Below are positions 4,590 through 64,000 of a DNA stretch of 64,000 nucleotides, one piece after another; position 1 is the first letter of the stretch; every line of letters begins with the position of its first letter. The stretch is from Haliclystus octoradiatus. Lineage: Eukaryota; Cnidaria; Staurozoa; Stauromedusae; Haliclystidae. The notes under the pieces were generated by a model that saw only the letters and a list, made by a program, of their open reading frames with translations, made no database searches and had not been told where the DNA came from. Made by a program: the position numbers and the translations under genes. The stretch lies in assembly GCA_916610825.1 (NCBI GenBank), contig OU744446.1, forward strand, positions 19,331,959 to 19,395,958, given 5' to 3'.

Positions 4590-7500
4590 ATGGGAGATAC
4601 GACGGCTGAAAAACGCGAGAGATCCCTGAGTGATCCTTGCTCACCTTCGCCGACAACAACTGATAACATGAACGGAATTACAACGACATCACACGATGAA
4701 CAGAATAATACAGTAATTTTAAGAAGGAGGAGTAACTTCTCTGGTATTAGTCGAAGAATTCGCATATTACTCAGACCTTGGAAATGGAAAAGGAAATCAA
4801 AACGGAGCAAAACAGTCTGTGATAACAGCCAAGAAGGTTTGTAGCCTTGTATTTGTTCAACTAGATTGCTGCCCACTGTTTCGAACTAATGTGCATTGTA
4901 TTTCGCATTAACAACATATTCCATTGCTTTTCCTGCTGTAAGATAAACACAGAGAGCCATTACCATGTGAAAGGTATATTATATACTGTAGCTTAGCAAT
5001 GTTAGCTCTCATCAAACGTCGAATTCACAACATTTGATTATCGTCGTATCGGTTTTCACACCAAAACCTTGCCTATTCTTCTTCCTCATATTTAATAAAT
5101 GATATTGTCGACAATTACTTAGTTCAATTTTGCTCAATTACATACTGCTATGTTTTTAATTCGACTGTTTTTAAAACTACGTAACTTTCAAACCATGCTC
5201 CTTTTCATCGCTGATCGATCGTCTCTGTCATTTTCTTATGAGTCCGTTTTGTATCCATTCTCAAAGAATTATATCTTCTTTCTGTTTATAAAGTTCATAA
5301 CTAAACTGTTCTACAATTAAAAACTATCAAACAGCTGTTGCTACCAAGGAGATGTTTCATTAAATTATTATTTTTCGAAGCTCGCTTTTCACTATTCGAT
5401 AGACTATGTTATTCGATAGACCTGTGGATAAATTTGTGAGATCTTACAAACGTTCACGTTTCAAAATGCACGAAATTTATTTATTCGAAATATTCATCTG
5501 GAGCGATTTTCCCATGTACCTCAAAAATGTCTTGCGTATATTATATTCTCTTATCTACACGGCTTAGCTACTAGGCCAATCCTTCTAGATCGTAAGATAA
5601 AATCATTCTTTCACTGTTTTGGTTGGTGATAAAAACTAAAAATACTGTAAACACCGAATTGAAACAGCAACAGAAATACCATGTTCTGGTCATTTTTTTT
5701 TAATTCAATCGAAAAACCACGAGAAGCAAGTTACAAACAGGTTGTATTGTCCATTTGATTTCAATCTATTTTCTCAACTTTTGTCAAAAGGATCTCAATT
5801 GCTGCGTTTTATTTTTAACCTCTTCTCTATTTTTATCCTGCCTATGTCCGACATAAATACTCCAACTAACTCATACGCTACATATCATAGTTTCAGACAT
5901 AATCTTTCTACCTCAATCATAGCATGATCATAGTACATATTATCCTGAAAACTTCTCTATTACGATACTGTTGGAGTTCACTACGAATTGCAAACTTTCA
6001 CACCCTCACTCCTTCGATCTTTGTTTGAACTAAACAGGAAGTGACAAACTGATTTGTTATCCCTCAGATCGTAATGTGAAATCTTGTCTATTTATCAATC
6101 CTCATCATATCTGACTCATTTGAATAAGAAGCTTGATAAATACACACCATTCCCCCATTGTTCGCTAAAATGGGGGAAACATTGTCCGAAGGCTAGCAAA
6201 ATTTCAGAAGAAAATGAAGATAATGTTGTTTTAATGATTCCAAATTGAGAGGAAATTACAATTTGTTTTATTTGAAAAAAAATTGAAGAGGCAAATGTTT
6301 GAGTTTTTAGCATTAACTCTCAACTTGAAAGCATTTGATTAATGTTAACCCAAACAATTTTGAAGGCAGAAATTACAGTTCCAGGAAAAAAATTATTGGG
6401 ACACCGATTTCCTTTTCTACCCTCCTTTTCAGAATGGCATTGCTGTATCCTGATTATTCACCAGATAATTTGTGATGATGTCTTGTGATGTTATGAAATG
6501 ATATACCGTATATTGCCATGTATAAGTCACCTTTGTAAAACTTTAAAAATGGCTCTAAAACCTGCCTCGACTTATACACAGAATCTAGTTGTTTAGTAAT
6601 AAAAATGCCACTATTTGTGTACAATAATCCTCAGTTATAGCAACAACAACGAAAACAAATCAAAATCGATTATTCGTGAAATATAAGAACCATAAACACA
6701 AGGGTCAGAGAAGAATTTGAGTAAAGAGCAATAATCCCAATTAAAAACGGCCATTTTAAATCATTTCACTTCTTTAATACTGCACAAGTCAATAGATAGC
6801 AAATCAAACGAATTAAGTAATTTATTTATGTTTAAACTAGATTAATTTTATTGTTTTTATGTCTCTCTCCTCTCTAAAATCGAATGAACCATTTTCAGCA
6901 AGTCTTCTATGTCTCACTGGGCATGTGTTGTATAAAAACAACAAAAAAGGCTACTGAAAAATGGTCACATAATGTTGATGTAGCCTCACTTCATCACGGC
7001 CCTCATTTCCACGCGCTCCAGTGAGGGCCTAATAAAATTTAAGGTTAAAAAGTGCCAGAAACCAAAATATGGTGTGCCCAATCACAGCGCACCTTGATGT
7101 CATGTGAGTTACAGCCAGGTGTTGGTTGGTCGGCCCATCGAAAAACAATACAACAAGGTGTGAACAAAAATTGAAATTTGCTAAATTCAGCTATTTTGAA
7201 TTTCAACATTTTGTAAACAAACTGTCGAAAAAAACTTAAACGCCAAATTTACGGGATTATTTTGGATCAAATTGGAGTAACAAAAATAGAAATAATATAT
7301 TACGTTTATCTCGAAGGACTGTATGAACATTATGATGGTTTTTTGTGGGCGTAGAATACAAAATAAAAAGAGAAAAAATCTTATTTTGACGGAGCGATCG
7401 CCATCGTTGGGAAATTGTAAGCACTTCCGTCGTTTTGAATCTTGATTTAAATAATCACAATCAAAGAAATATTTAAAATTTAAGATCGATTCACCAATAT

Positions 7501-10500
7501 ACAGCATTGCTCTAATTCCGACTTCCACTTCTCCGTAAATATATAATTCAAAATTGACTATATGATAACCTCTGAGAATGATTCAAGCAAGTTTGTTTAC
7601 CTTTTTAGTATTTTGTTCACCAACCAGCGCTCGATAAAACTTCACGTGACATCAAGGTGCGCTGTGATTGGGCACACCATATTTTTGGTTTCTGGCACAC
7701 TTTTTAACCTTAAATTTTATTAGGCCCTCACTGGAGCGCCGCGCGGAAATGAGGGCCGTGATGGAATGAGGCTAATGTTGATGTTTTCACTTGAAAGTGT
7801 GACTTTTAGGGGATGGCTTACGGTATTGGTTTTCTCTAATCTAGAATTTTGCTTCAAAAATGGGGGGTTGACTTATACATGGCAATATAAGGTACTGTAA
7901 CTGGTTTTAGGTCTAAACTACGAACACTATAAATCTCATACAAATGATTTTAACCTGCAATCACTGGAATATAGGACATAGGTGGATATTTAATGACATT
8001 GTCATGGTATTTAAGATCCTCAACCATGCTGTTGACCTTCAGCCTGGAACATTTTTTACTAAAATCATTCCGAATGCGTCCTCCGTGGTCATAGTCAACA
8101 GCTAAGTAGAGTGAAATTGTCAATTGGCTGCCACACATACTTTTTTACTCAACGCATAATCCCAATATGGAATTGTTTTTAGTGATGAAGTTGTACTGTA
8201 TCAGCTCTATCTTTCTACTCATTTAAATTTTTACTTAGGAATGTAGACTTAAAACAATTCTGTAAATTATACCCCTAACTGGCTGTAACATTAGTGTAGC
8301 TTGCTACCTGTATTTGTCTGTTAAATTTATTTGACAAATATACACCACCCACATGGCGATCTGATGACGATTGCTACGAGCGTGTGTTTTTGAGTGCTCT
8401 TTTAATTTAAAATGATTTTTAAAATGTTGCAAGTTTCATCGCTCTTATAGTCTTATAGTATAGAAACTACTCATTATTCTTTACCGTGCATTACTACCAG
8501 GCTGTCGCAAAGTGCGGGATCCTGGAAACCTAGTTCCCGGAAAGCCACTACAAAATCAGAAGGTTTCCAATCTTATCATGATTAAAATACACATTAGAAT
8601 TGATTGATAAAGAAATCTAAATTCGTTTGTATCTTGCAAAGGGATTCCTTTGACACCGCAAATTGCTAGAGGCATAGGGATTCCTATGACATCGCAAAGT
8701 TGAGCATAGACATTAGACATGGTTTAACTTCTATTCAAGTGAAATATAATTTAAGGAAAAGTTATTCCCTATAACATTGCAAAGGGGTTCATTTTCAACA
8801 ACGTGCCAACATAGTTTGATGACATGATTTTATTTATGCATCAGCACATTTTTCACTATTTTTTGACACGAAAAAATTTCTATTACACCTCAAAATCGAG
8901 TATAGACTTTGTTTAACTTCAGCGACATGATGATGTCATTTTATGCGGTAATTAATGTGAGTTTTCAACGACGTACAAAGGAAAGAGTGACACTAAAAAA
9001 TTCCTATGACGCTGCTGAATTTTCACTAAATACGATTAATAAGCTATTCGCAGGGCTCGCAGCTATAATAGTCAGAGAATCAGACAGTCATATTTGCTAC
9101 TTTAAGTTTCACTCCGAAGCAATCATCAGACAATAATCTGTTCAATGAAAAAACATACTATACCTTCTTGATACATAGAATGGGTGCTATTGTATTTTAA
9201 TCTATTGTAAATTTTTTATTCCTATTACCGGCTATTTTATTGTTCGTTGCTCCGTTGTTCATTTTATTGTTCGTACCATGAAAAATGTTTCAGAGGTAAA
9301 ACTTATACTCATGTCTACATTTTGATATAATTTCAGTCTAATAAATTACAGTCAATAAACTGTTGCAGTCTTTGCTTTGTCATTTGTTAAAATTTGTACG
9401 CTCTGTTTTTGTGTCACCATGAATTTGTTTGTATGTTTGATGTTTTTTTTTTTGTGTTAGTATGAGTCAGTATAAGTTACTACTTTCAACAAGTGAGCCT
9501 TTTTTTTATTTCAGGTCATGAAATATCATATTAAGGTTTTGTTTCGTTTCCCTTCATTAATTTGTTTCAGCAACGAGCCATATCAATTACAAATATATTT
9601 GGAGCTGTAATTGCATACTTTAATAATCGGCAGAGGGAGACATAATGATTAGATACCGTGCATTAAATGTACATGTACTACTACTACACACATGTTATAC
9701 ACTGCTGTAGCATTTTCCAAACAGAAATGGATTGATTGCATACTTGGCAGCGAGAGTGTTAATCATATTGATATGGATAAAAGTAAAGCAGGAGCAACAG
9801 CTGCTGCTCTGGTTCAGTTATTTTTAATGAAATCCAACTCATCTTTTGTCACATTAAACCTATGTTGTAAACAGCTGGGATGGATATACTGTTTGCTTCG
9901 TAGCACACTTGGAATTATGAATAATCATGCATTTGATTGAATTCAAAACATTTGTATATCATTTGTGTATATAAAATTGTTTCTTTTTGATTTCAAAAAA
10001 TGGGACACGGGAATATCAAAAATGCCATGTTCAAGGTCAAATGGAAAAAAAGTTCTATCTTCTATCCAAATCCGTTGTTTAAAAGAAGGCGATAAATATA
10101 TAACACTTTTTAACTGTTTGAATTTCATCTGTATACAGTAATTTTTTATTATTTTAATTTGCTCAGATAAAATGACTACCTACACTAATTTCTGATTTTA
10201 ATGTGTGTTCTTCAGGATTGGCTTCAACAGCACCATTGTCGTATTCCACTTCAGTGCTGGATCGTGTAACCACTGAACCAGGAGATGGCAAGCAAGATAA
10301 CTCATCCAATCAAACACCAAATGGTGCCAATCACTCTAGTTCTGATAGTAACTTACAAACGTCTCAGACAACGAAGGAATCAAACAATGCTGTCACAGTT
10401 GATATGCACAATGTAGATGATGAAGAGACTAGCGAAGGTATGCCATGGCCTGTATTCTCATTCCCTGTTTAAATGATACTGTGCAACAATTAACATATAG

Positions 10501-63498: not shown

Positions 63499-64000
63499 TA
63501 GCCTCATTCCATCACGGCCCTCATTTCCGCGCGGCTCTCGAGTGAGTGGGGCCTAATAAAACTGAAGGTTAAAAAGAGTGCCAAAAGAATGGCAAACCAG
63601 AAATATGGTGTACCAAATCACAGCGTACCTTGGTATCACATGAAGTTTTATCGAACGCTAGTTTGTAAATAAAACTCTACAAATGTAAACACTCTTGCTT
63701 GAATTATTCTCAAAATTTATGTTTCGCTCGTTTATTCTGTCATATTGTCAATTTTTTATTTGTATATTTATGGAGAAATGCTATTTTGAATCAGAATAAT
63801 TCTGTATATTGGGGAAATGATCTTCAATTTCAAGTATTTCTTTGATTTTAATTATTTAAATCAAGATTCAAACCGACATAAATGCTTAAAATTTTCTCAC
63901 GATGACGATCGCTCCGTCAAAAGATGATGCTTTCTCCTTTTATTTTGTATTTTACGCCCAAAAAGGCCTTCATAAATTTTTATACAGTCCTTGGAAAACT
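63499..64000. mobile_element. Mutator-like element, second copy, cut by the window end
   Basis: Starts TAGCCTCATTCCATCACGGC and follows the reverse complement of the 6981-7774 element: the 130-bp terminal repeat, then interior matches such as GACGATCGCTCCGTCAAAA and TATTTTGTATTTTACGCCCA. About 500 of an expected ~800 bp are present, so the right terminus lies outside the window. A few small insertions are visible in the terminal repeat. Confidence 0.8.

Follow-up and report, generated by a model that had tools for sequence, protein, structure and literature searches.

The 64,000-nucleotide stretch analysed here (the window) lies on contig OU744446.1 of the staurozoan Haliclystus octoradiatus (GCA_916610825.1, positions 19,331,959 to 19,395,958), within a genome of 262 Mb in 33 contigs. 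It has a GC content of 33.6%, codes for laminin G and C2H2 zinc-finger frames, and contains several insertions of very different size that begin with TAGCC or a close variant and are flanked by short target-site duplications (TSDs). The original prediction had described five such insertions, E1 to E5, as one Mutator-like group in which some members had shrunk to almost pure hairpins. All five are real, with the positions, termini and sizes claimed for them, and the duplications flanking E1 to E4 match the claims, which confirms the observation of TAGCC-ended insertions with duplications; the interpretation as a whole is partly supported. A sixth member, overlooked earlier, lies just upstream of E3 and is without the outer TAGCCTGCG on its left side. 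The elements are short and non-coding, have terminal inverted repeats (TIRs) and TSDs, and occur in many dispersed copies, as is characteristic of miniature inverted-repeat transposable elements (MITEs); the longest listed frame wholly within any of them has 131 amino acids from stop to stop, in E1. Together, our data suggest that these are TAGCCT-ended, 9-bp-duplicating MITEs, probably driven by a Mutator-like element (MULE), and they reveal a size class consisting of hairpins only that is both unusual and abundant.

Table 1 Elements of the TAGCC-ended group in the window, and a short interspersed nuclear element (SINE)-like insert in one of them.
Feature	Position	Strand	Description	TSD
E1	6981-7774	+	794 bp, non-autonomous, TIRs 127/133 bp, ends TAGCCTCA	6972-6980 / 7775-7783, ATGTTGATG, 9/9
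E2	23224-23293	.	70-bp hairpin, decayed; nearest arm group TAAAACGTTTC	GATAATTTA/GGCAATTTA, 7/9, decayed copy
Sixth element	32751-33076	-	related to a 289-bp element in L035	32742-32750 / 33077-33085, GCTAAACGT, exact
E3	33309-34695	+	~1.03-1.07-kb family, TIRs ~103 bp, ends TAG(C/T)CTGCGCGCAGACCC	33300-33308 / 34696-34704, CTTTAAACA, 9/9
SINE-like insert in E3	33550-33872	-	323 bp	33543-33549 / 33873-33879, ATCAAAT (7 bp)
E4	54610-54677	.	68 bp, near-perfect palindrome, 31/34 mirrored positions agree	54602-54609 / 54678-54685, ACAAGCTA, 8/8
E5	63499-64000	-	second E1-family copy, inverted relative to E1; right end beyond the window	

E5 agrees with E1 at 78.5% over 498 bp, placing both in one family. 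The motif CTGCG, which had been noted just inside the ends, is present in E3 and E4 and at the right end of E2, and E1 and E5 read TAGCCTCA instead, defining an E1 type and a CTGCG branch. Both types of end are frequent in the genome. Exact TAGCCTGCGNN(N)CAGACC ends occur 1369 times (672 forward, 697 reverse), among them 120 + 131 occurrences of TAGCCTGCGTTACAGACC, and E1-type ends (TAGCCTCANTCCATCACGG) occur 422 times (212 + 210), with no occurrence of the control patterns, reversed for the two main end types. Exact 9-base termini on both sides were found at 230 loci of 60-90 bp and at 96 of 91-121 bp, again with 0 in controls. Given 1369 ends and 230 + 96 hairpin-sized pairs against none in controls, these structures cannot be ascribed to chance. 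In DNA similarity searches 40 candidates each were scored out of 2307 (E3), 70 (E4) and 854 (E1), which makes the copy counts from these searches lower bounds. Apart from the window copy, 21 of 22 E3-type loci measure 1030-1070 bp, the remaining one (L008) being 2257 bp long; labels of this style (L001-L106) denote genome places whose letters were fetched, and C1 and C10 are contigs.

Tabulating the flanks genome-wide, as had been proposed, yielded duplications of at least 8 bp (9/9, 8/9 or 8/8) at 18 of 24 E1-type, 21 of 23 E3-type and 25 of 39 E4-type insertions. The 23 E3-type loci, window copy included, comprise 14 duplications of 9/9, four of 8/9, three of 8/8, one of 7/9 and one lower match. 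For the E1 type, where 30 loci were reduced to 24 distinct flanks since three locus groups have flanks in common, 11 are 9/9, seven 8/9 and two lower, and at four the ends were not both located. For the E4 type, a truncated copy (L061) was set aside from the 40 loci, and the remaining 39 hairpins gave 22 of 9/9, two of 8/8, one each of 8/9 and 7/9, and 13 lower matches. At L039, automated end placement scored 8/9 and the BLAST ends 9/9. When the left flank of one copy was compared with the right flank of another, 0 of 1482 E4-type pairings reached 8/9 or 8/8, and 0 of 2324 E3/E1-type pairings, from which alike left flanks had been excluded, reached 8/9 or better. An E1 copy nested in another E1 copy (L050) shows a duplication within a related sequence: the 9-mer GTGAGGGCC, single in the TIR of the window E1, flanks this insertion on both sides as GCGAGGGCC/GAGAGGGCC, each with one changed base. 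Separately, five E1 copies at G000:C10:6.66-6.92 Mb (L026-L028, L033 and L034) have the same flanks, which probably reflects duplication in this region of a segment that already held one insertion.

The hairpin class is best described by its arms. About 50 of the 230 loci of 60-90 bp were listed and the letters of eight printed; others, including E4 and several of its type, are known separately. All eight printed places are palindromic within the pattern-free interior, each scoring higher than any of 500 shuffles, and they fall into six arm groups at a local arm score of at least 24 beyond the first 17 bases, a cut-off that we set ourselves. Two of these groups score 22 with each other, having TAAAAC in common, and the remaining comparisons score 18 or less; E4 belongs to a different group from the one nearest to E2. 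Three hairpins (L096, L098 and L099) have mutually alike arms of E3 type, which match roughly the outermost 40 bp of the E3 TIR and, in L099, its outer 42 bp. The L097 hairpin consists of the terminal part of a 933-bp element together with its mirror image. Among the first 100 E1-type ends listed, four places have ends 64, 69, 90 and 90 bp apart, a spacing which suggests that E1 may have TIR-only versions as well. The proposed shrinkage of longer members is thus supported for E3 and the 933-bp element, for which bare-TIR hairpins exist; E2 and E4 are not shrunken copies of E1 or E3 and represent separate arm groups.

The E4-type copies are the most informative about how hairpins arise and spread. 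Both outer 31-bp arms are exact in 11 of 40 loci, and these 11 copies have six different centres, lengths of 68 (three copies), 73 (three), 74, 75, 80 and 81 bp (two), flanks that all differ, and, in all but L021, an exact TSD of 9/9 or 8/8. Identical centres at different sites imply that copies of the hairpins as such reached new positions. If hairpins were instead immobile, each would have been left where a longer element once stood, by a separate deletion, as the match of their arms to the TIRs of longer E3-type and 933-bp-type families might be taken to indicate; with the same centres (68 bp three times, 73 bp three times and 81 bp twice) recurring at different flanks, in every case but L021 with an exact duplication, and no larger E4 relative in the 40 candidates scored out of 70, we consider this explanation very improbable.

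The same copies carry several centres on unmutated arms, suggesting that E4-type hairpins are revised more quickly in the centre than in the arms; as the copies were chosen for their exact arms, no rate follows from this. We also considered homogenisation of the arms by conversion after insertion. In 39 copies, however, 55 differences between arms within the outermost 27 columns were accompanied by 0 shared non-consensus bases, giving no sign that the arms correct each other once inserted, and this possibility is not supported for the E4 type. Further inward, column 28 has one change common to both arms, and at column 29 the copies split symmetrically into two subfamilies (14 T/T, 14 G/G, nine discordant and two gaps). 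A more far-reaching proposal would be that transposition favours complete palindromes of 60-90 bp, lacking a loop, as substrates. Different MITE families would collapse time and again to TIR-only hairpins, which would multiply independently of the parent elements, and the hairpin centres would be remade faster than the arms mutate, probably via a hairpin or cruciform intermediate; we put this forward as a speculative model only.

The TIRs of the longer elements offer a possible structural explanation for the length of the hairpin arms. TIRs span 127-133 bp in E1, ~103 bp in E3 and 91 bp in the 933-bp element, compared with only 30-45 bp in hairpin arms. In each of the three TIRs the subterminal box recurs further in as an inverted copy (GGCCCTCA..TGAGGGCC in E1, CGCAGACCC..GGGTCTGCG in E3, GCGCAGACCTTACT..AGTAAGGTCTGCGC in the 933-bp element), which lies near positions 41-57. 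By eye, the arms of E3-type and 933-bp-type hairpins stop near this inner box, and the longest E4-type arms may, by analogy, end there too. The inner box is a putative second transposase-binding site, and a likely stop point of the deletions that would produce TIR-only hairpins.

Whether all of these elements form one group is a question on which the TIRs and the flanks point in different directions. Unrelated interiors combined with different duplication lengths had been named in advance as the pattern that would speak against a single group. Between size classes the interiors are indeed unrelated; the terminus TAGCCT and the duplication length are the same. It is quite conceivable, if on balance doubtful, that two or more independent transposon groups (an E1-type TAGCCTCA group and a CTGCG-type group) are served by different transposases and have converged on their termini and TSD length: the TIRs of E1 are unrelated to those of E3 and E4 past TAGCCT, and their interiors are without similarity. 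Against such convergence, both groups have the same outermost TAGCCT and a predominant 9-bp TSD, and the E1, E3 and 933-bp TIRs are alike in holding an inverted repeat of their own subterminal box.

We therefore regard it as likely that the elements make up one terminus group of non-autonomous cut-and-paste MITEs, whose TAGCCT ends are recognised by a transposase supplied in trans that inserts them with a 9-bp stagger. According to this model, the enzyme, presumably of the Mutator (MULE) kind, would recognise the outermost TAGCCT, together with the adjacent CAGAC box in elements of the CTGCG branch, excise the element and insert it at breaks staggered by 9 bp. Deletion or template switching may then remove the DNA between the outer ~35-45 bp of both TIRs, leaving a hairpin that would transpose on its own, its centre being trimmed or remodelled in the course of excision or of repair.

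Several observations weigh against this interpretation. A single transposase for E1 and the CTGCG branch is uncertain, because TAGCCT, six bases, is all that the two have in common. A recognisable TSD is absent in 13 of 39 hairpins and at two of 24 E1-type flanks. In the part of the genome examined, no autonomous copy with these ends was found. Six loci matching the MULE domain PF10551 (L101-L106, with 0.6-2.2 kb beside the frames) contain TAGCC/GGCTA strings and no TSD-TIR pair. Within 8 kb inward of 100 listed TTACAGACC ends there is no PF10551 match, and the two PF20700 (Mutator) matches both contain stop codons and have conflicting orientation; within 10 kb inward of 100 listed E1-type ends there is neither, with one match of each outward. 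The listed ends represent part of the genome, and transposase frames may lie further inward than these distances. Along C1, 62 other listed TAGCCTGCGNN(N)CAGACC ends have one PF20700 neighbour, which lies outward, and one pair of E1-type ends is ~8 kb apart at C1:27532711-27540673.

Both MULE domain families are present in the genome, with 85 matches to PF10551 (112 of 112 candidates scored) and 125 to PF20700 (114 of 218 candidates scored). Thirty of the PF20700 matches lie in open frames of exactly 616 amino acids with almost equal scores, and from sequence this family looks recently active. The full-length, MULE-coding copy that was to be looked for between the same ends was not found in the part listed, and no MULE lies convincingly inside an end pair there; of the Mutator-like assignment, it is the TSD length that stands. 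Since no MULE is tied to these ends in that part, the label derives solely from the length of the duplication. The transposase could accordingly belong to another superfamily with a TSD of ~9 bp, or to an unrecognised one, a reading in keeping with the missing MULE and with the fact that the TAGCC terminus was matched to no known MULE in this analysis. Duplications made by hAT elements are 8 bp, unlike those of the present elements, among which 9/9 matches predominate and 8/8 matches are confined to three E3-type loci and two hairpins, with 0 at E1-type flanks. Duplications of 9 bp with some of 8 lie within the 8-11 bp of MULEs in the excerpts of a published account (PMC6446971), so that we consider a non-MULE enzyme unlikely, and a MULE remains the preferred candidate.

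Several potential leads to an autonomous partner were examined and rejected. At C1:72149-75088, a 2940-bp element with E3-type TIRs and a TSD (ATTGCAGGC, 9/9) has an interior with reverse-transcriptase-like frames and no MULE; the likeness was judged by eye from the two longest frames, with 80 bases per end and 1401 inside read, and the listed PF10551 and PF20700 matches include none within the element. The apparent single element at C1:6850843-6854251 consists of two, a 933-bp element and a ~95-bp hairpin. A 1717-bp candidate with 314-bp arms (C1:8529226-8530942) has no TSD, its inverted repeat continuing through the 20 bases outside, and at C1:17984570-17990737 the flanks disagree. L100 (335 bp) was considered as a carrier of a transposase fragment; its interior recurs as same-strand pairs, several of them ~4.8 kb apart, for which reason we interpret L100 as a hairpin interrupted by a solo long terminal repeat (LTR). 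The repeat read as an LTR is ~266 bp long and is thus seen both in same-strand pairs and, presumably, as a solo copy. In the window, GTTCATGAAC-rich inverted repeats lie at 37583-37693 and 46217-46615, and GTTCATGAAC also flanks a 571-amino-acid PF10551 MULE frame in L103, which suggests that the two may be MITEs of that MULE.

Two known systems come close to the Haliclystus elements. MuTAnT, a foldback MULE MITE of Medicago truncatula, is described in the excerpted text (PMC4486113) as 292 bp long with 144-bp TIRs and a 9-nt TSD, its two long, almost identical TIRs having a strong hairpin tendency; sizes range from ~200 bp to >1.6 kb, TA microsatellites are targeted, and a related autonomous element exists. 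The 9-nt TSD, the TIR-dominated hairpin and the size range within a family are shared; unlike MuTAnT as there described, the elements reported here are from an animal, reach down to 62-90 bp with 30-45-bp arms, and comprise several arm groups. The Mutator/Foldback element Tm1 of root-knot nematodes has, in excerpts of its description (PMC3169594), mostly 9-bp TSDs, a MITE-like majority averaging 431 bp, composite TIRs of repeated short motifs and a copy with a Phantom-like transposase. Tm1 thus resembles our elements in its animal host, TSD, MITE-like majority and differing interiors between common TIRs, and differs in its larger size and in its motif repeats; none of the latter (FB/Tm1 type) were seen in the few Haliclystus TIRs read and self-compared, which did not amount to a systematic search. 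Animal MULEs such as Phantom, as excerpted (PMC6446971), likewise combine TIRs with TSDs of 8-11 bp, and differ in that no coding copy was found with the Haliclystus ends. A literature search, with Repbase outside it, returned no description of palindromic MULE-like MITEs of 60-90 bp in several groups, which is weak evidence of absence, and the matches listed in a text search with the terminus sequences were unrelated by title.

The elements provide a natural size series from ~1 kb to 62 bp within one terminus group, which bears on the minimal DNA needed by a cut-and-paste transposase and on how ends can pair with almost nothing between them. The hairpins also document the survival of palindromes in an animal genome and the way in which palindrome centres are revised. 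Annotation of repeats with length cut-offs would be expected to overlook such elements.

The window contains further repeats. The 323-bp insert in E3 has A/B-box-like sequence and, by reading alone, a tRNA-derived look; ARAGORN gave no tRNA for it and Rfam no match. An 835-bp foldback at 42671-43505 has 318-nt arms that are 97% complementary, and no 9-bp duplication was found at the TAGTC-like ends inside it. Long trinucleotide arrays of ATT/AAT type, open in several frames, occupy 684-1760 and 18190-18935.

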